This document shows, in pieces, positions 5,199-19,608 of a stretch of 42,553 nt of DNA; within the stretch, counting starts at the first letter, position 1, and the number at the start of each line of letters is the position of its first letter. The stretch is from a virus: the IMG/VR virus record IMGVR_UViG_3300032322_001268, positions 1-42,553 of that record; one strand, 5' to 3'. Made by a program: the position numbers and the translations under genes. The notes beneath the pieces are model-generated. The model did not search any database. It was not told the origin of the DNA and was given only the letters and a program-made list of their open reading frames with translations.

Positions 5199-5498
5199 TT
5201 AGCCTACGCTGCGGCCCTTGGCGGGCGTACCAGCGGCGGCGGACGACAGCGGGTTCATGTTGGAGCCCGTGCGACCGCCCGACTTGCGGGCCATGCGGCC
5301 AGCGTGCTTCTTGCCGGAATTGCCATCGGCCTTGCCGACGCTCTTCTTGACCTTGCCGCCACGCTTGCGCTCCTCGGCCTCGGAATTGACATTGCTGTCA
5401 GCCGTGTAGCGCATGTTCTTCTTGCCGAGGTCCTGTTCCCATTCCCTCGAACCGGAAGTGGCATCACCACCTGCGGCCTTACCTTTGCGACCCTTCAT
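5199..5498 (-). CDS. 99-aa very basic protein with GG[KR] motifs
   Basis: Lys/Gly/Arg-rich and apparently disordered. Two linear motifs, KRGGKV (residues 45-50) and RKSGGRT (71-77), are shared with the 431-residue protein at 10249-11544. An acidic-aromatic patch (SREWEQDLGKKNMRY) lies near residue 17. GGAG nine bases upstream supports ATG 5498. Position just after the capsid genes and its charge suggest a packaged DNA-associated or internal virion protein; this is inference. Confidence 0.68.
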   Translation of the reverse strand: MKGRKGKAAGGDATSGSREWEQDLGKKNMRYTADSNVNSEAEERKRGGKVKKSVGKADGNSGKKHAGRMARKSGGRTGSNMNPLSSAAAGTPAKGRSVG

Positions 5499-9571: not shown

Positions 9572-9958
9572 CTACCAAATCAGATCGGGGTGAGAGGCGA
9601 GGCACTGAACCCTGACGTCCTCAAGGATCCGGCAGTTCACGCCATTGACGATCAATGAGTAACCATCGGAGGCACGGAACCCGACCCACGATCCAACCTC
9701 AAGCTTGTTGTCGCCGAACCAGTCAGCATCCGCACCGACATTGACGCCGGTCTTCACGATCAGGCCAATCTTGCCCTGATAGATGTCCTCGTCGCGGAAT
9801 TTGGTGGTCAGGATGATCCCGCCCTTGGTCTTCTCCGGGCGCACATAGATCGCACACAGAACCTTGGGGCCGATCAGATTGATTCCCGACAGGTCGCCAA
9901 TCTTGTTGCGGATCTCCGTTGCGGGATCCACCTCGTGCGTCATAGGCATAATCGACAT
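9572..9958 (-). CDS. GroES-like phage co-chaperonin (128 aa)
   Basis: Residues 28-70 read NLIGPKVLCAIYVRPEKTKGG...IYQGKIGLIVKTG, matching the Cpn10 order: beta strand, mobile loop around KTKGGIIL (44-51), then the GxVGxG-type core; residues 87-101 (VGSWVGFRASDGYSL) match the VGDxVxF...GxxV region. GroES is about 97 residues; here about 27 extra N-terminal residues and a longer C-terminus are present. It probably caps host GroEL to fold capsid proteins, as T4 gp31 does. It sits next to the scaffold gene, and GGAGAG precedes ATG 9958. Confidence 0.82.
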   Translation of the reverse strand: MSIMPMTHEVDPATEIRNKIGDLSGINLIGPKVLCAIYVRPEKTKGGIILTTKFRDEDIYQGKIGLIVKTGVNVGADADWFGDNKLEVGSWVGFRASDGYSLIVNGVNCRILEDVRVQCLASHPDLIW

Positions 9959-10248: not shown

Positions 10249-11544
10249 CTATCCCTTGCGCTTCTGAATCTCCGTCTTTTCCAGACGGCCAAGGCCACCG
10301 CCAGCGCCCGCGTCCATGTCCTTGTACGAACGGTGCACGCGACCACCAGCCTTGCGGCCCATCATGGGCGGAGCGCCCGGCGGAAGGCCCATCGGCATAC
10401 CGCCTGCAGGGGGCATGGGAGGGCCGCCAGCGGGCGGCAGCATGCCGGGGGCACCCATCGCAGCGGCGGGCGGAAGGCCCGGCGGCGGCTTCAGTGGCAT
10501 GGGCGGGAGCGGCATGGGCATGCCCATGGCGTCCGGCTTGGGCGCGGTGTTGATGTTGATGTGGATGTTGGTCTTGCCCTTGCCCTTGACCTTGCCGCCG
10601 TCCTTTCGGGCGGTGCGACCACCGGTCGGACGGGTGCCACCCTCATAGTTGCCCTTGGTCGCGCCGCCGGACTTCTTGCCCATCATGCCCGACATCATGC
10701 CAAGCAGGCCGGGGGGCTTGCCGCGCGCCAGCGCGTATGCGGGCGACAGGAACTGCGCGCCCATGTCGAGCATGTTGCCGCTCTTGCCCTTAAACGGGCT
10801 GTCCATGCCAAAACCGCCACCGCCGCCCTTCTTGGTGCGGCCACCGTCTTTGCGTCCGGCGCGGCCCCTGAGCAGGGAGTGAATCAGCGCGGCTTCCTTC
10901 TTGCCGATCTTCTTGCCAGACCGGTTCGAGGAGGCGATGGACTTGTTGACGGCGTCCTCATTGTAGCCGCCAGCCATGGCGTCGGGCGGCATGTCGTTGG
11001 TTTCGCCACCGGAGGCCCTGCCCATGCGGCCACCGCACGCCTTGCAGGCGCAGCCCTTGCCGTGCGTGGATCCGCCCTTCTTCTTGCCGACCGCCGTGGT
11101 GTGCTCCCACTCCCGCTCCTTCTTGCCCTGAGCCGCTTCGTTGGCGCGGATCTTCTCCAGATCGGCGTTCGACAGGTCAGCCGGGTACATACCGGCATAG
11201 TCGCCCTTGCCAGCGCGATTGACGGTCGGGCCGCCCTCCGCCTTCTTCAGGGCCTTCTTGCTGACCATCGACTTGATCAGCTTCTTGTCCATGGCGACGT
11301 CGTCATGCTTGCCGCGCGGCTTCTTGCCCGCGTGCTTCATGCCCTCGGCCCCTTCGGCCTTCAGGTTCACCTTGCCGCCGCGCTTGAAGGCCCGCTTGGA
11401 GATTGGGGCCGCGCCCGTCTTCTTGCCGGTCTCCATCAGGGGCTCGCGCCAGCCCGATGCATCAATGTCGCCTTTGGCGGGTGCTGCACGCCGCTGCGCC
11501 CGCTCCTTCATGGCCGCGCGGGCCTTCTTTGCCGTATCGCTCAT
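10249..11544 (-). CDS. Basic Gly/Lys-rich virion protein with repeated GG[KR]V motifs (431 aa)
   Basis: Highly basic and low-complexity. The first half is Lys/Ala-rich with FKRGGKV (53-59), KAEGGPTV (101-108), a Cys cluster CACKACGG (165-172) and RASGGET (176-182). Residues 231-320 carry RKDGGRT, KKSGGATK and RKDGGKV; residues 338-396 are Pro/Met/Gly-rich; the end is RKAGGRVHRSYKDMDAGAGG, a C-terminal phrase found in many rhizobial-type phage virion proteins (from memory). It is probably an internal DNA-associated or ejected virion protein. The CxCxxC cluster may bind metal. The AT-poor, repetitive DNA opens long antisense frames that are not genes. Confidence 0.7.
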   Translation of the reverse strand: MSDTAKKARAAMKERAQRRAAPAKGDIDASGWREPLMETGKKTGAAPISKRAFKRGGKVNLKAEGAEGMKHAGKKPRGKHDDVAMDKKLIKSMVSKKALKKAEGGPTVNRAGKGDYAGMYPADLSNADLEKIRANEAAQGKKEREWEHTTAVGKKKGGSTHGKGCACKACGGRMGRASGGETNDMPPDAMAGGYNEDAVNKSIASSNRSGKKIGKKEAALIHSLLRGRAGRKDGGRTKKGGGGGFGMDSPFKGKSGNMLDMGAQFLSPAYALARGKPPGLLGMMSGMMGKKSGGATKGNYEGGTRPTGGRTARKDGGKVKGKGKTNIHININTAPKPDAMGMPMPLPPMPLKPPPGLPPAAAMGAPGMLPPAGGPPMPPAGGMPMGLPPGAPPMMGRKAGGRVHRSYKDMDAGAGGGLGRLEKTEIQKRKG

Positions 11545-11564: not shown

Positions 11565-13925
11565 TTACGGGCGTCCCCGTTTATGCTGCCGAGCAATATA
11601 CACGGCTTTCTGGACAGCGTCAGTGCCGGATTTCTGCGACTTGCCACTCGCCAAACCACCGCTGGCGAAACCATATTTCTTTATCCGCTCTTCGCCCGCC
11701 TGAATGCTCTCCAGCATTCTGTCGTCTATGGGCTGGATGCCTTGCCGCAGTTCCGTGTTCCCTCGGAAAGATGCCCTGCCGGTCGGCAATGGCGAGTACG
11801 GGTGAACGAGCAACGGCTCCCCGGCATTTGGCCCTTTTTTCTGAACGTATCGCGGATCCATCAACTGCGACTGCACGAAATCGGGCATCACGTCATGCCG
11901 AGGGGCGAACGGCACCGTGCCAATGTACTCACCCTTTGTCGGGGTGTTATATGTCGCATGCTTGAAGGTTAGATTGGCCGGATCGTAATTGCTGGGGTCG
12001 AGGCGAACGATGTTGCCGCCCATCATGTTCCCGGCCACATGAAGAAGATCAGGATCCGTGACAGCAGCGCGCGTTGCAGAGACGGACGGAAAGCCAGAGT
12101 CGAGGTATTCCTTCTTGTCCATCATTTTAATCAGGCCAGCGCGCACATTTCCGTTCATGTTTTCAAACGCAAATTTTCTGGCCTTCTTTCCGCTCATCAA
12201 GCCCGGCCACTTTGCCATTATCGGAGCGGCATTTTCCTGCGCTTTTCTTTTTTCTTCGGAATTTCCCGTTTTGCTGTTGTAGACGTGTTGCGCTCGCCTC
12301 ACCTTTTCATCGAAGTCTTTTACCGCCTCCGGATCAATGCTCGATGCGTTGACGTGCGATAGCATCGCATCCATCAGATTCTTCGACGAATCGGCGGATT
12401 CAGTTCCCATGGGTGCAAATGCGCCAAACACTGCGCGCCCCTTGTCCGCTTCGCGCAAAATGTTGTTTCTCAGTGTCGTGGCCGCAATCCTGTCGTTGGC
12501 CCAGACTGCATTCGGGTTCGGTTCGCGCTGGTACTTGGTCCCGGCATGCAAATCCACCGGCCACGCCAGCTCCTTCCCATTGATGTGCGTGAGGCGTCCA
12601 AGATTTGAGCGGTCGCCACCAAGGGTAAACAACGTCCCGCCCTTCCCAATCTTGTGGAAGTCTTCCCACCCCATCTTTGTCACGGGCTTTGGTGTGACCC
12701 CCCTCAGTTTCTTGATTTTTGTGCTGACCTGAGACGGCATGATGGGGTGGCTTTTGAAATCCGAATACGAGGTGTCGTCTACATTGTAGGATTCAGCGAC
12801 CCTCTTCGCCGCCTCGTAGTGCTCCGGATTGTTGGGGTCCAGAATCTTAGACATATATTCTTGGAGGCGCTGATCCTCCGAAGTGCCCGGAGATCCGCCG
12901 CGCGCAAACCCTTCCGAGAGACCATGGAAACCAAGCGCCCGCATGGCGTGCGCCACGGGATGGCTGGCAATGTGTCCACCCTTGATGCTGCCGCCGCTCG
13001 CAGCGTGCCGCATGGAATCCATCACGTCCTGATGGGTGGTCTGGTCACCCTCGGCCTGATCCCACACTGCATGGTGCGCAAGGTGCTGGTAGTAGGGCTG
13101 GAGCTCATCCGGCAGCGACAGGTTCATGGCCTTCTGCCGGGCGGTCAGCCGGTCGAGTGCGTCCTGCGCCTTCGGGTTCATCTTTTGCCCGGCGATCATG
13201 TCGCCGACCGTGCTGCTGGGCAGGCCGGTGTGCAGGATCCGCTGCCGGGCGTCGAAGGTTGGCTGATCGCCGCGCCCCATGAGGGAGGCCACAAAGCCCG
13301 CCTTGCTGGTGTCGATGCCGTGCAGGCCCTTGGCGAAGGCACGCCATTCCCGCGCCGGGCTGGCGCTCTCCATAGCCGCAGCGACCAATTGCGAGACCTG
13401 ACCCTCCTTGCCCGGCAGGTTCTCTGCGGCCCAGCGCATGCCATTCTTCTGCAGGTTCGAGAGGCCATAGTGGCCGAAGCGGTAGGCCATGTCGTCGAGG
13501 GTGTCCTCGCGCACCTGCCCCCTCTGGGCGGCGTCAAGGTAGGCCTGACCGGCAGGTGTGTGCAGCCATTCGCCGAACGCGCCTTCGGGGCGGATCATGG
13601 AGCCAGCGTTGGGCACCGACATGCCCTTGGCGCGCAGCTTTTCGGTCGATTGGGCCTGCCGCTGGATGCTGGAGAGCGTGATCGTGTAGGCCTTGATCAG
13701 GTCGCGGGCCGTCAGGCCCTGATCTCTGGCCTTCTTGGCCGTTTCGTCCATGAACTGACCGAAATCCTGCACGTGAGACGGGATTTCTTTGATGTCCCCA
13801 AGCTCCTTGACGACATGAGACAGGGGCCGCCACTTCCAATCGGCCAGTTTCTCGCTCTTGGGGTCGCGGTAACGCTGAAGCTTCGAGATTCTGAGCGCCT
13901 GAGCGGCTTGATCGTCCTTGTTCAT
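11565..13925 (-). CDS. Large virion-module protein (786 aa), unknown function
   Basis: No enzyme was recognised. Residues about 1-200 are helical. Residues about 200-300 contain KAGFVASLMGRGDQPTFDARQ and later DELQPYYQHLAHHAVWDQ, a block I associate with large proteins encoded near phage portals. Residues about 470-630 are more AT-rich in DNA and include GTESADSSKNLMDAMLSH and KKARKFAFENMNGNVRAG. The C-terminus has SGGLASGKSQ, echoing the GG motif of its neighbours, and a basic end. The start overlaps the stop of the 1104-residue gene by four bases (ATGA), implying coupled translation. A protein ejected with the DNA is plausible. Confidence 0.65.
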   Translation of the reverse strand: MNKDDQAAQALRISKLQRYRDPKSEKLADWKWRPLSHVVKELGDIKEIPSHVQDFGQFMDETAKKARDQGLTARDLIKAYTITLSSIQRQAQSTEKLRAKGMSVPNAGSMIRPEGAFGEWLHTPAGQAYLDAAQRGQVREDTLDDMAYRFGHYGLSNLQKNGMRWAAENLPGKEGQVSQLVAAAMESASPAREWRAFAKGLHGIDTSKAGFVASLMGRGDQPTFDARQRILHTGLPSSTVGDMIAGQKMNPKAQDALDRLTARQKAMNLSLPDELQPYYQHLAHHAVWDQAEGDQTTHQDVMDSMRHAASGGSIKGGHIASHPVAHAMRALGFHGLSEGFARGGSPGTSEDQRLQEYMSKILDPNNPEHYEAAKRVAESYNVDDTSYSDFKSHPIMPSQVSTKIKKLRGVTPKPVTKMGWEDFHKIGKGGTLFTLGGDRSNLGRLTHINGKELAWPVDLHAGTKYQREPNPNAVWANDRIAATTLRNNILREADKGRAVFGAFAPMGTESADSSKNLMDAMLSHVNASSIDPEAVKDFDEKVRRAQHVYNSKTGNSEEKRKAQENAAPIMAKWPGLMSGKKARKFAFENMNGNVRAGLIKMMDKKEYLDSGFPSVSATRAAVTDPDLLHVAGNMMGGNIVRLDPSNYDPANLTFKHATYNTPTKGEYIGTVPFAPRHDVMPDFVQSQLMDPRYVQKKGPNAGEPLLVHPYSPLPTGRASFRGNTELRQGIQPIDDRMLESIQAGEERIKKYGFASGGLASGKSQKSGTDAVQKAVYIARQHKRGRP

Positions 13926-16900
13926 GACCGGGATCCCGTTTTTTTCGCCGCCATCAGGGCTTTTTTAGCCAATTTTACCGGATTTTCGTACTGTGGGGCG
14001 ACCAGCCCGCCCGCTTTTTTCACGACAACGTGACGATACACCGGATGCTCCTTGCCGCGAACAAGAATTGAGCCTGCCTGCGGGCCCAGCTCCACGTTTC
14101 CGGTCGTTGTCGGGCGCAGGCGGGGCTCCGTGGGGGAGTTTTCGTACCGCGCGAGGTCCACACCCCTCGGGAAGTGCGCGTTCAGGGCGTAGTGGTGCTT
14201 GCCGCGATGTTCGACAGACACGATTGTGTCCGTGCTTGCGTGCTCCTCCGGGGCGTTCAGCCATTTCCAACCCGCCTTCTGCTTGAACAGGTTGGCCCTC
14301 GCCATCGCGGTGCCGCGCCCGGTGCTGCCGGTCTGCTCGACGGCATCCGCCGACGCTTTGAAGAACGGTTTCCCGCCCGGCTGAACGCCGATTGTGGCCG
14401 CCGCAGCCTTGTGGCCGGTGATGTCGCGCTTGTCAGGCATGGCCAGATATTGGCCGCCGGGGGGTCGGGCTTCCTCGGGGAACATGCGCTGGGGCTTCGG
14501 GAAGACCGACATAGAGTTTCGGATGCTCGCGCCCACCACGCCCTCTGGATCGACGCCGAAATTCTTGTAGATTGCCTCCATCTGGGCGCGCTCTTCAGGC
14601 TTGATGAACTCAGCGCCATCATGGTGCACCCAGACGGGCAGGACGCCCAACTTCTGAGGGGAGAAAAAGGTGTCATCCGTGCTGGCGTTGCGATTGCGCT
14701 CGCCATTGGGACCATAGTTTAGCAGGCTGTTCTGCCCGCGAGTTTCGGAGCCCATCGCGATCCGGGCCAACGGGCTGTACATGGCCGCATGGGACCGCCA
14801 AGCATTCTCTTCGCCGTCTCCGCGAAAGCCAACGCCTTCCTTGACGTGCCCATAGTAATCATGGACGGCCCGGAACAGGTCGTTGAACGTGACGGGCTTG
14901 CCGTTCCAGCGTTCTCCGCTATCGCCCAGCAAGGGGTTGTTTTCGTGTTCCTCTGGCTGTTGCCCGGTGCCGAAACCAGCGTCGGTCGGGTAGACATACA
15001 TATGGTTGTTCTTGTTCACGTCCTCAGACATCAGGCGCGGCTGGCTGCGGTACGGATCTTTGGTGGGGTCGGGGTAGAACTCCGCCTTCAGCCCGGCGGC
15101 CTTGGCCGCTTGATACTGGGCCAGCGTTTCCTGCTTAAGCGCCTCGTAGGATGCCTTCACCAATGGATGGCTTGGGTCATGCTCCATGTTTTCGTAGGCA
15201 TGGGCGATCCGGGTGGCGCGCTCGGGGTCAACTCGCTGGTAAGAGGTGGGCGGGTTATAGTCGATGCCCGCCGCTCGGGCGTAATCACGGGCCGCCTGCC
15301 GAATGACTGGGTTGTGCGCGGCAACAATCGACATCCCGAGCTTGGGAATCTTGATGTTGGTCGGCAACCCGGTCAGGTCTACTTCGCCGTGTGGCGGAAG
15401 CGATGCAGGAAGAACGCCCTCGCCTCCTCGTATTCCTCCTGCGAGGGGAAATCCTCCCGCTTGGGCGACATCGCCAAGACGTGCGGCGGGAGCTTCATTT
15501 TTTTGTTCATCTACGGTGCCTCCTTCGGCCTTGGCTAGATGCTTCTTCGTCAGGTTATAAGCGCCGGAGTTGCCGATTGCGCTCTTGATGTGCGTGCCCT
15601 GATTCGTAAGCTTGACGACGAGCCTTCCCTCGCCGCTTGCTGGCACCCATGCATCGTGCCCCTTTCTGCGCAGCGTGTCAAACCAATCGCTCTGCGCTTT
15701 CTTATAATTATCGGTCCGCACAAAATCTGGAAGCTCGCCGGTGTAGGGGTTCTCGATGCGCACATAGGCGGGGATCACGCGCGAGGCGGTGTTCGTTTTT
15801 TCATATGTCCAGCCCGGCCCCTGCCTATACCCCTGACTGTCGTTCTGCTCCGCGTAATCGCTGGCTTCTTTGGGGTCATCTGTCAGCCACGTGCCGTGGC
15901 GGCTCTCCTGAAACGCGGTGAAGTCTTTGTCCTTCGACGTGCCGGTGTAGTAGCGGCGGCGCAGGCTCTGGTGGGTGGGCCCGAAGAACTGATCGAGGCC
16001 GCCCTCGACCTCGCCACCCGCAGATTTTACCGCCTTGGCAAAGCCGCGACCCGCCGTAGTCAAATCCGTGCTGTGCTTCACATCAAAATCCTGACGCGCC
16101 CTCTTCAGAAGGCCCGTGGCAACTTTTGATCTGCGGAACGGCTCTGCTACATAGACGTTTTGGATCGTGGCGTTCTTTGATCTTGGTCCTTCGGTCTGGA
16201 TCTGGAGAGCGCCGATTGGATTTCCATTTTCGTCGTGATGGAGATAGCGAATGGATTTTCTGTTGTTCATCGAAAAGCCAGACACACCGGCTTTGTACAT
16301 GCCGTCATCAAAAAGCATCTTCTCGTCACCGACCATCCGGGACTTGCCTATGGGCTGCAGCAAATCATTTTCACTTGCATATGCCGCGCCTTGCGGTGTC
16401 GGATCCTGATCGTCCACCTCGCCGCCGTCAGCGTACCCAACGCCGGGCCCTTTGCCGAAGGGCGATTCAAGCTGTCCGGCGTCAAACGCAATGTAGCTGT
16501 CAGTAGCTTCCGGAAAGTGCTTCTTAAATTCGTCGTCGGTCATCTTGCTCAATTGACCGCGCATAATGTACCCCGGACGCTTGACATCTTCCATGCGCGC
16601 CTTTGCTTCGTCGGTCGGCATTTCATATCTGTTCAGGTACACAACTCCGTCGTAGCCGTGCTTTCTGATCATGTCATGGACCTCTTGCACGGCCTGCTTC
16701 TGATACCTCAAAGACGTCCCGTGATGCGCCACGGAATCGCCGGTAGGCCCAGATCCGCTTTCAAGATTGGCAAGACGCTCTTCTACCTGCGGATTGTATT
16801 TTTCGAGGCCTTTTTCAACAAGCTGTTTGTAGACCATGCTGGGATCCCATGTCCCGTGTTTGTCATGCAAGCGAAGAGGGTTTTGCATTTTTGCATCAAA

Positions 16901-17236
16901 CGGGATCACGCGGGGCGCACGCGCAAAACCAGAATTTGGGTCATAGCTCGTGCGCGTGGCGAACCTGTTCGCCGTAGCCGCATCACCCAAGTGGATGCCG
17001 AGCTGATCGGGCGAAATGAACGGATCCAGTTCGTCAATCGGGTGCGACACCTCAGTGCCGTGGTAGAGCCGAAGCGGGCCGCCGTCAGCGCGCACCTGTC
17101 GCGGCACGTCAGGCATGTACTTCGACGGGCTCACCTGCCCCGGCGCTCGCTTCTTGGCCTCCTTCGCCCGGTTCAGCTCCAGCCTGCCGCCAAAGGACTT
17201 TGCCGTCATCAATGCAGAACGAATTGGCCCGCTCAT
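13922..17236 (-). CDS. Polyvalent protein: two ADP-ribosyltransferase-like domains plus GNAT-like domain (1104 aa)
   Basis: Region 1 (about 55-262): LYHGTEVS, GIHLGDAATANRFA, KHGYDGVVYLNRYE and SYIAFDAGQLESPFG follow the order of ART-PolyVal domains, with His/Tyr at the first strand and Glu near 205 as candidate catalytic residues. Region 2 (about 300-405) has TIQNVYVAEPFRRSKVATGLL, a GNAT acetyltransferase acetyl-CoA loop. Region 3 (about 428-560) is a second ART-like unit (YTGTSKDKDF, TWLTDDPKEASDYA, VIPAYVRIENPY, KGHDAW, IKSAIGNSGAYN). Region 4 (about 630-870) includes AVHDYYGHVKEGVGF and is unassigned. ADGGEV and AEGGTV link the regions. It overlaps the portal stop by ATGA. A packaged, injected host-modifying protein is the likeliest role (inference); activity is unproven. 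Confidence 0.75.
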   Translation of the reverse strand: MSGPIRSALMTAKSFGGRLELNRAKEAKKRAPGQVSPSKYMPDVPRQVRADGGPLRLYHGTEVSHPIDELDPFISPDQLGIHLGDAATANRFATRTSYDPNSGFARAPRVIPFDAKMQNPLRLHDKHGTWDPSMVYKQLVEKGLEKYNPQVEERLANLESGSGPTGDSVAHHGTSLRYQKQAVQEVHDMIRKHGYDGVVYLNRYEMPTDEAKARMEDVKRPGYIMRGQLSKMTDDEFKKHFPEATDSYIAFDAGQLESPFGKGPGVGYADGGEVDDQDPTPQGAAYASENDLLQPIGKSRMVGDEKMLFDDGMYKAGVSGFSMNNRKSIRYLHHDENGNPIGALQIQTEGPRSKNATIQNVYVAEPFRRSKVATGLLKRARQDFDVKHSTDLTTAGRGFAKAVKSAGGEVEGGLDQFFGPTHQSLRRRYYTGTSKDKDFTAFQESRHGTWLTDDPKEASDYAEQNDSQGYRQGPGWTYEKTNTASRVIPAYVRIENPYTGELPDFVRTDNYKKAQSDWFDTLRRKGHDAWVPASGEGRLVVKLTNQGTHIKSAIGNSGAYNLTKKHLAKAEGGTVDEQKNEAPAARLGDVAQAGGFPLAGGIRGGEGVLPASLPPHGEVDLTGLPTNIKIPKLGMSIVAAHNPVIRQAARDYARAAGIDYNPPTSYQRVDPERATRIAHAYENMEHDPSHPLVKASYEALKQETLAQYQAAKAAGLKAEFYPDPTKDPYRSQPRLMSEDVNKNNHMYVYPTDAGFGTGQQPEEHENNPLLGDSGERWNGKPVTFNDLFRAVHDYYGHVKEGVGFRGDGEENAWRSHAAMYSPLARIAMGSETRGQNSLLNYGPNGERNRNASTDDTFFSPQKLGVLPVWVHHDGAEFIKPEERAQMEAIYKNFGVDPEGVVGASIRNSMSVFPKPQRMFPEEARPPGGQYLAMPDKRDITGHKAAAATIGVQPGGKPFFKASADAVEQTGSTGRGTAMARANLFKQKAGWKWLNAPEEHASTDTIVSVEHRGKHHYALNAHFPRGVDLARYENSPTEPRLRPTTTGNVELGPQAGSILVRGKEHPVYRHVVVKKAGGLVAPQYENPVKLAKKALMAAKKTGSRS

Positions 17237-19608
17237 TTCCTCTCGCGCCCCTCTGAATCTGTCCTCGCCATCAATTCGTGGGCGTGCCGAACGTGCTCGC
17301 TCAAGTGGTCACGCTCCTGCAACGCCGAGGCGTGCTTTCGCTCCGACTCCGCCTTGATGCTGTCGCTCTCCAGCCGCATCTTCTCGATGGTCACGTCGGA
17401 CTGCCGGTCGAGATCGCGGTTCTGGTCGTCAGCCGCAGCACGCTCCTGCTTGAACTGCAGATCCTTGGCCTTCAGTTGAAGGTTCAGGATCTTTGTCGGA
17501 TCCTCCTGCGGCACCAGCCCGCCCTGCGCATAATCCTGCTTGGACTTTGCCACGTCGGCCTGCGCACGCATCATGTCGGCCTGATCCCGGATGGAATCGG
17601 ACTGGATCTTGGCCTTGGCCAAGGCCTCCTTCAGATTGGCATCGCGGTTCTTGAGCTTGAGCTCCTCCATGCCCTTCAGCACTTCAGGCGGCGGAGATTT
17701 CTGGTTTTGCTCCGGAGCCATGAACTGCTCCGGGTTGTTCCAGCCAATGGCCTGCAGCGCGGCCTTATCGACCGCCACGGGGTCGTAGAGGCTGGGGTTC
17801 GCCCCCTGAAGCTGCTTCAGGGCCATGATCTTCATCAGGCGCTGGCCGTGGCTGGCGGTGTTCGGGTCGGCCTGCGGCACCAGATCGACCTGATCGAGCG
17901 CCATCAGGAACACCTGCTCATCCCACGGCAGCGCGGGCTTGCGGTTGCGCTGCCAGAAGCTCTCCGGGTTCTCTCGGAAACACCGGACGATCAGGGCGAA
18001 CTCCTCGGCCTGCGCCGCATGCATGCGCTTGTGGACGGCGTTCATGACCTTGGTGGCCTGCTCGATCATGGCCAGCGTGGTGCCCACAGGCGCGTCAGGG
18101 CGGCCTTCGCCCACCTGAAGCTCCGACGTGCCGCCGACGCGCATGCCGGTCTGGGCGATGTTCTCGACCAACTGCATGAGGGCCGCGCTGGGCTCCTTGT
18201 AGGGCAACGGCATGATGGCTTGGCTGATCGGCATGCCGCCGGTCTTTACCAGCGCACCCCCGCCCGGCGGGACGCGGAAGATGTTTGTGTTCTGGCGAGC
18301 GCCGACGTCCGACATGAGGAATCCGGGGAAATTCGAGAACATGCCTGCATCGAGCAGCTCGCGCCATGCCGCAGTGATCGCGTTGGTCGTGTTGCCCAGA
18401 ATGTGGAGCAGGCCGATGTCGTAGAAGCCGAGCCCCGGCACGAAGGTGTACTTGACGAAATTGACGCGGGCTTCGGGAAGGTCCTTCGTGTCCTCGTCGT
18501 AGTTCCGGACGATGGACAGGATCTTGCGGCTCGAGACGTCGATGGTCACCCGGTAGGGGATTTCGAGGCCGGTGATCTTGCCCTTGCGCTTGTGCTGAAA
18601 GCCGGGGATGTCCAGCTCGCAGTAGATCTCATAGATCTCGCGGTCGCGCTCGTCGGAGTTTGCGCTCGAATTGGAGATGCCCTGAATTGCGTTCTTCTCC
18701 TGCTGCACGCCGTCGAGGTTCAGCGCCAGCGGCGTCGAGAGATCGTCGTCCTTGTAGACGCCCAGAATCTGCATGCGCTTCACGACGCTCGACCGCATGA
18801 TGATGCGGTGGGTGATGCGCTTGGCGTTGCTCAGGTCCGTCGCGGATTGGTTCACGATCAGGTCGTCGGCATCGACGGATTCGGAAACCGGGCGGCTTCG
18901 CAGCGGGCAGAAATAGACCTTCTTGAAGGCCGTGCCGCCGAAGCCCAGCATCAGCAGCATGCGGTCTGTGTCGGGGTAGTATTCCGTGGCCGTGCTGGTC
19001 AGGTAGTGGTTCAGGTCGCGCTCCAGCGCGTTGGCGATCTGGTCCCGCTGCAGATTGGGGTTGTTGCCGTCCTCGCGGATCTTCACCGGCCCGTCCGTGG
19101 GCAGCAGCTCGCTGCGGGCATTTGCTTGGAAGCGCAATACAGCCTCCAGCAGGAGCGGGTGGCGGACCTTGCTCATGCCCTCGACCGGCGCGCCATCGGC
19201 GGTGCCCTGCTGGCTGGGCAGCTCGATCTTGAGCCCCAGCAGCTTGAGCCCGGTCGCCCGGTTCTCAATCCAATCCTGTCGGCTCTGGATGTCGTCGCGC
19301 ACGCCGCGCAGCAGCTCCTCGGAGATCTCGGAGAGCTTCATCTCCGGAATGTCGTCCACCAGATTGTCGAACCACTCTCGGTTGAACTCTTGACCGTTGG
19401 CTTGGGCGAGCGGCGTGCCGTCAATGCTGACGGTGATCGACCCGTCCGGGTGCTCGATGGACAGGATGTTGCCCTTGTCGTCCATCTTCGGCGCGTCTTC
19501 GCCCTCCGGGGCGTCCTCGATGACGATGTCGGTGTCGTCGCCGGTCAGCGCCTCTTCTTCGGGATAGACCTGACGGATTGAGGGCGACAGCCCCGGCATC
19601 ATTGGCAT
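17233..19608 (-). CDS. Portal protein (791 aa)
   Basis: Immediately follows TerL, as portals usually do. The acidic N-terminus (about 1-60) precedes a body with WFDNLVDDIPEM, GLKIELPSQQG, RHPLLLEAVLRFQANARSELLP (about 150-170), and VRVNFVKYTFVPGLGFYDIGLLHILGNTTNAITAAWRELLDAG-type membrane-free helices (about 395-435), all typical of long podovirus portals. Residues about 635-790 form a long coiled coil (EELKLKNRDANLKEALAKA onward) like the barrel of P22-type portals. The length is close to that class (700-800). It has its own promoter and lies behind the TerL terminator. It forms the dodecameric DNA channel at the capsid vertex. Confidence 0.85.
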   Translation of the reverse strand: MPMMPGLSPSIRQVYPEEEALTGDDTDIVIEDAPEGEDAPKMDDKGNILSIEHPDGSITVSIDGTPLAQANGQEFNREWFDNLVDDIPEMKLSEISEELLRGVRDDIQSRQDWIENRATGLKLLGLKIELPSQQGTADGAPVEGMSKVRHPLLLEAVLRFQANARSELLPTDGPVKIREDGNNPNLQRDQIANALERDLNHYLTSTATEYYPDTDRMLLMLGFGGTAFKKVYFCPLRSRPVSESVDADDLIVNQSATDLSNAKRITHRIIMRSSVVKRMQILGVYKDDDLSTPLALNLDGVQQEKNAIQGISNSSANSDERDREIYEIYCELDIPGFQHKRKGKITGLEIPYRVTIDVSSRKILSIVRNYDEDTKDLPEARVNFVKYTFVPGLGFYDIGLLHILGNTTNAITAAWRELLDAGMFSNFPGFLMSDVGARQNTNIFRVPPGGGALVKTGGMPISQAIMPLPYKEPSAALMQLVENIAQTGMRVGGTSELQVGEGRPDAPVGTTLAMIEQATKVMNAVHKRMHAAQAEEFALIVRCFRENPESFWQRNRKPALPWDEQVFLMALDQVDLVPQADPNTASHGQRLMKIMALKQLQGANPSLYDPVAVDKAALQAIGWNNPEQFMAPEQNQKSPPPEVLKGMEELKLKNRDANLKEALAKAKIQSDSIRDQADMMRAQADVAKSKQDYAQGGLVPQEDPTKILNLQLKAKDLQFKQERAAADDQNRDLDRQSDVTIEKMRLESDSIKAESERKHASALQERDHLSEHVRHAHELMARTDSEGRERK

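Follow-up and report, generated by a model that had tools for sequence, protein, structure and literature searches.

The window, by which is meant the whole 42,553-nucleotide stretch analysed, is the 42.5-kb sequence of an uncultivated virus. It contains a 1104-aa open reading frame (ORF), here called P0001, at 13922-17236 on the minus strand, which starts with ATG and has no internal stops. The start of P0001 shares 4 nt with the stop of the portal gene (17233-19608), and its own stop overlaps the gene for a 786-aa protein downstream (11565-13925) by a few bases. The portal was identified by matches to SU10_portal (Pfam PF23899, E=2.4e-11) and phrog_1216 (PHROG, 5.5e-25), and the large terminase (TerL), which P0001 also adjoins, was recognised via Pfam and PHROGs. 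A preliminary description had placed a single 1104-residue protein with a particular order of motifs directly behind the portal, and this is borne out: the frame is genuine, shares bases with the portal gene and is no chance ORF, since relatives at the module level occur in 80 viral loci. P0001 carries at least two domains of disparate activity on one polypeptide, as in the polyvalent protein class described in 2017 (Iyer et al., PMC5512222). A GroES-like co-chaperonin is also encoded within the head operon (window positions 9572-9958) and is kept in relatives. The metagenomic loci used for comparison are fragments, with ORFs taken as genes; sequences that are related do not count as independent, and redundancy was lowered in every test. 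The features are as follows, with the basis for each in brackets.

13922..17236, minus strand: polyvalent protein P0001, 1104 aa (ORF, Pfam/PHROG matches, relatives)
17078..17236, minus strand: N-terminal leader, residues 1-53, MSGPIRSALMTAKSFGGRLELNR...VRADGG (conserved in several loci)
17180..17200, minus strand: Gly-Gly (GG) tag 1, KSFGGRL (homology breakpoint against L085, the closest relative)
17072..17092, minus strand: GG tag 2, RADGGPL (homology breakpoint, residue 52.7)
16451..17077, minus strand: ART1 module, residues 54-262 (PF18760 below curated cut-off; motif table)
16415..16435, minus strand: GG tag 3, YADGGEV (within the low-pLDDT segment 242-287)
16019..16375, minus strand: GNAT module, residues 288-406 (PF00583; AF2; Foldseek; relatives 54-67%)
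16004..16027, minus strand: GG tag 4, KSAGGEVE (breakpoint, residue 407.0)
15539..15964, minus strand: ART2 module, residues 425-566 (PF18760 E=1.6e-8 alone; alignment)
15509..15532, minus strand: GG tag 5, KAEGGTVD (breakpoint, residue 572.7)
14552..15469, minus strand: HDYYGH module, residues 590-895 (phrog_3170; 29-sequence alignment; AF2)
14018..14533, minus strand: C-terminal module, residues 902-1073 (30-sequence alignment)
14000..14020, minus strand: GG tag 6, KKAGGLV (GG closes the C-terminal module in 26/26 close relatives)
13925..13999, minus strand: C-terminal tail, residues 1080-1104, ..LAKKALMAAKKTGSRS (tail motif analysis)
17512..17532, minus strand: GG tag of the portal, YAQGGLV, in its C-terminal region (rare in other portals)
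11565..13925, minus strand: second tagged protein, 786 aa (13/20 relatives have at least two tags)
10249..11544, minus strand: basic protein, 431 aa, with many basic-type tags (57/57 homologues with at least two tags)
5199..5498, minus strand: basic protein, 99 aa, with tags RKRGGKV and RKSGGRT, both conserved (gene-class tag count)

Two ART-like regions had been proposed in P0001, and across the whole protein the Pfam family ART-PolyVal (PF18760) does match two stretches (E=1.5e-13). When the regions are searched separately, ART2 (E=1.6e-8, 35.9 bits) exceeds the 31.2-bit cut-off, ART1 (E=7.9e-6, 27.1 bits) stays under it, and the GNAT region exceeds its own; the second ART region is thus secured by profile, and the first falls short on its own. 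The Pfam matches are solely of the HYD type, with no R-S-E match of the Alt/VIP2 kind in P0001. The published active site of the ART-PolyVal family (Tox-ART-HYD2 clade) is formed by H in strand 1, Y in strand 2 and D in strand 5 (PMC5512222). ART1 reads H-H-D, with H59 in LYHGT and the Asp of IAFD kept and a His replacing the strand-2 Tyr in GIHLG. ART2 has T (YYTGT), then W in place of the strand-2 Tyr (GTWLT), and the strand-5 Asp is absent. The suggestion that both look active is not supported: neither region has the H-Y-D signature, so the assignment is to the ART fold, with activity putative. Because many ART2 relatives carry the same T and W, ART2 is read from its sequence as a derived ART-fold family and a putative enzyme. 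No relatives of ART1 were confirmed in viral contigs.

The assignment of the GNAT region is supported by both profile and predicted structure. It matches PF00583 (E=1.4e-4, 22.6 bits against a cut-off of 20.7), its AF2 model has a pLDDT of about 80-95 across residues 290-388, and a Foldseek search with that model recovers GNAT structures at a probability of 1.0 (E about 1e-3), so the structure prediction proposed as a check turned out in favour of the fold. The acetyl-CoA loop, from which the GNAT-like region was initially recognised, is degenerate: it reads RRSKVA, with Lys replacing a Gly of Q/R-x-x-G-x-G/A, and most relatives have RRQGIA. In the lineage that carries the tags, all GNAT relatives terminate in A-K-A-x-K-x-x-GG.

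The region containing HDYYGH matches phrog_3170, a PHROG without a function (E=6.8e-14). In an alignment of 29 sequences, from phages and from contigs of bacterial genomes, the invariant residues are N785, D786, R789, H792, D793, H797, E809, H816, E831-TRGQNS and N840. The AF2 model, with pLDDT above 90 for most residues, places most of them on three neighbouring helices, which suggests a helical site that binds a metal or cofactor, as in a metalloenzyme. The fold search returned approximately 20 predicted phage proteins and no match in the PDB, and there is no Pfam family. Stand-alone HDYYGH proteins of 306-431 aa are found in Enterovibrio and BD1-7 clade genomes (L191, L192). The C-terminal module (KQKAGWKW, GKHHYAL, EPRLRPTT, HPVY) has 33 invariant columns among 30 sequences, and neither a Pfam family nor a PDB sequence match. 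PDB profile searches with the whole of P0001 and its modules gave no sequence match, NCBIfam and PADLOC searches of P0001 gave none either, and no peptidase or zincin-like metallopeptidase (MPTase) domain was matched in it by Pfam.

With the exception of ART1, the modules of P0001 recur independently or in a different order in proteins of up to 3477 aa. L085, whose contig is shared with L003, has structural genes approximately 90% identical to those of the window and a protein with the P0001 leader, ART2 and C-terminal module, without ART1, GNAT or HDYYGH; it also encodes an inorganic pyrophosphatase (PF18823, 7.6e-53). The blocks of homology between the two proteins break at residues 12/15, 52.7, 407.0 and 572.7, that is, at the Gly-Gly pairs GG16, GG52, GG407 and GG572. 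At a fifth junction, residue 904.7, GG is absent on the window side. The 786-aa protein likewise has a segment, at about residues 330-762, that is substituted in L085. All of the glycine linkers named in the preliminary description were found (residues 52, 271, 407, 572 and 1076, with another at residue 16); listed there merely as linkers, they proved to be the most informative feature of the protein.

Across 60 ORFs, GG lies within 6 aa of 51% of 232 protein-level block ends (null 15.5%, sd 2.3), and the strict tag is found at 25% (null 2.9%). For 177 block ends defined at the nucleotide level (at least 80% identity), the proportion near GG is also 51% (null 16.6%, sd 2.7). Only ORFs with two or more strict tags were included in this set, and the test therefore shows where the tag is located, not how frequent it is. 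The consensus around block ends is [YKF]A[DE]GG[ED]V[DE]D. Tags number 547, compared with 48 in shuffled proteins. Their DNA differs (151 sequences among 164 tags) and their Gly codons are near the background of the genes; the tag is conserved as a peptide, not as DNA.

The tag is restricted to certain genes. TerL, the major capsid protein (MCP), GroES and three conserved head genes, including the scaffold-like and decoration-like ones, contain none, and only one was found among 36 portals. Homologues of the 431-aa basic protein, in contrast, have 13 per 1000 aa, and all 57 are tagged. In the examined stretch of MW202675, a named relative discussed below, the only genes with recognisable tags are those for the polyvalent proteins and the basic protein. 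The control, a set of polyvalent proteins from other lineages, has GG at 11.4% of block ends against 8.6%, which is not an enrichment. All 26 close relatives close the C-terminal module with GG, as does 1 of 13 distant ones. Across the fragmentary loci, co-occurrence of tag and basic protein is moderate (Fisher p=3.6e-4). The positions of the tags, the exchange of modules at them, their restriction to polyvalent and basic proteins and their conservation as a peptide are, like the ORF and its modules, established computationally. The last 35 residues of the 431-aa protein contain a near-invariant SYKDMDAGAGxGxGRLEKTEI across the 57 homologues; a tblastn search with this C-terminus found no match in named phages, despite the syntenic homologue in MW202675. 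Elsewhere, modules of the giant polyvalent proteins of L077, L076, L078, L172 and L186 often end in [DG]IRFMP or [GD][IV]RFS, and FMP is near homology-block ends in 6 of 12 occurrences. This is possibly a second, distinct boundary tag, and [IV]x[FY][MS]P is a weak lead for such a motif in other lineages.

Most polyvalent proteins of the lineage also have a common C-terminal tail, GG-x-[IV]-V-D-R-A-L-M-L-A. Of 50 polyvalent ORFs whose stop could be seen, 40 have GG within their last 40 aa (20.7 expected). A strict helix regular expression gave 11 hits, and an unbiased motif search was used instead, yielding K-G-G-[SA]-[VI]-V-[DR]-[RK]-A-L-M-[LI]-[AT]. The scoring matrix was trained on tails that were also counted, although the comparison with internal windows in a non-redundant set still holds (324 vs 254-266). 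In P0001 the two ends are alike (IRSALMTAK and LAKKALMAAKK): the ALMxAK stretch of the leader resembles the tail motif, with a tail-motif score of 9.6 at residue 1.

We infer that P0001 is packaged in the head and then injected into the host, carrying its effector modules (two with the ART fold, the GNAT, HDYYGH and the C-terminal domain), together with their enzymatic activity, on one chain. The cassettes would be joined by linkers, probably disordered, and flanked there by the short linear Gly-Gly motif; phages would swap cassettes at this motif, and the motif and the C-terminal tail would be retained at the ends of otherwise differing polyvalent proteins. During head assembly the tag would be recognised and would recruit tagged proteins, plausibly through the basic protein of the same operon, with its many tags, or jointly with it. 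The chances that P0001 is such a packaged and injected polyvalent protein, with GG-bounded cassettes and a recruitment motif, appear to us about even. A more specific version, in which the GG tag and ALML tail together act as an address, or code for assembly, that the prohead or the multi-tag basic protein would read, is more tentative. The tags of the 431-aa protein are basic (RKDGGRT, FKRGGKV, RKAGGRV) and those between modules are acidic, and a common partner for them is for this reason a guess.

It may be that the tags are merely permissive flexible linkers with no partner, at which exchange does the least harm. Gly-rich linkers are common and block ends necessarily fall between domains, but among linker-like dipeptides GG and DG alone are strongly enriched at block ends, with no enrichment of GS, SG, PG or PP. 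The flanking A-D/E and V-D/E positions are conserved, the tag persists at C-termini and recurs in two non-modular basic proteins, and homologous modules of other lineages lack it. This explanation is possible but doubtful. Cleavage, in which a head maturation protease would free the modules in the head or the host and cut the basic protein into peptides, seems unlikely. It would suit a motif that is present once per cargo boundary and many times in the basic protein, and that sits in linkers, modelled with low confidence and probably disordered, which separate the folded modules; release of polyvalent domains by a peptidase has already been proposed (Iyer et al., PMC5512222). However, P0001 lacks an MPTase and, as far as sequence can tell, the conserved head genes include no recognised protease, those of 305 aa and 315 aa being scaffold-like and decoration-like and that of 174 aa having no obvious catalytic signature. 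The tag may also form the final residues of a protein (KYARGGAV), where a cut would free almost nothing. Recognition is favoured over cleavage because of these tags at chain ends and this lack of a protease. It is improbable that P0001 is a late intracellular protein, outside the virion and merely encoded beside the portal, given the overlapping reading frames, the identical synteny in MW202675 and the class-wide inference of Iyer et al. Finally, a DNA recombination site, with GGCGGC micro-homology driving module exchange, would fit the 6-nt overlaps of neighbouring L085 homology blocks at GG52 and GG407, but is largely disfavoured and very improbable given the varied DNA of the tags, their background codon usage and their presence in non-modular genes.

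If the packaging and recruitment model is correct, a peptide that marks cargo modules, is swapped with them and is repeated in a partner would constitute a testable packaging code. With an address code, any new effector cassette could be loaded into the virion, which would explain the rapid swapping of modules. A sequence search would suffice to find injected effectors in metagenomes, and modules which, like HDYYGH, have no known fold relative would come to light. To our knowledge, the way in which phages choose the proteins that they package and inject has been worked out in detail for very few of them, and in the open-access literature checked, Gly-Gly punctuation of modules seems to be undescribed.

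Among known systems, T4 Alt is a single effector of the R-S-E class with an N-terminal capsid targeting sequence, and the T4 prohead protease gp21 cuts Alt, internal proteins and the scaffold. P0001, if packaged, would resemble Alt as an injected ART-fold effector with a short motif shared by the cargo and a second internal protein; it differs in its HYD-type ART folds, in tags at module boundaries and in that a protease was not found. The HDYYGH domain is shared with phrog_3170 (gp110 of Bxz1-like mycobacteriophages, 433 aa), which is about 30% identical and, unlike in P0001, is a separate gene. In Mycobacterium phage Pio, gp109 and gp110 adjoin (L195:6861-10059) and have a common N-terminal TAREQFEML-PW, which may be a targeting leader, as gp110 belongs to the HDYYGH family.

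The nearest named relative by portal (63.5% identical) is MW202675 (Caudoviricetes sp. ct7L0027, Manatee Spring). It has the same order of TerL, portal, polyvalent proteins, multi-tag basic protein, GroES and MCP, but its modules, including HDY and InPase, are spread over three genes. One of its polyvalent proteins (L082:20316-22532) joins a GNAT, an M15 peptidase and an ART with the canonical H and Y. With the polyvalent class P0001 shares a long chain of disparate enzyme domains, a location near virion genes, domain mosaicism and predicted injection, the last an established inference for polyvalent proteins beside the portal (PMC5512222); ART-PolyVal, a GNAT beside an ART and, in relatives, InPase are also common to both. 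Two ARTs and a GNAT had been thought an unusual toolkit, a claim that fails because GNAT typically adjoins ART in this class and as many as 12 ARTs have been reported in one polyvalent protein (Iyer et al., PMC5512222). The words "glycine" and "linker" do not occur in that paper. P0001 differs from the class in its HDYYGH and C-terminal modules, which have no Pfam family, and in three features absent from PMC5512222: the GG boundary tag, the common C-terminal tail and the multi-tag basic partner gene.
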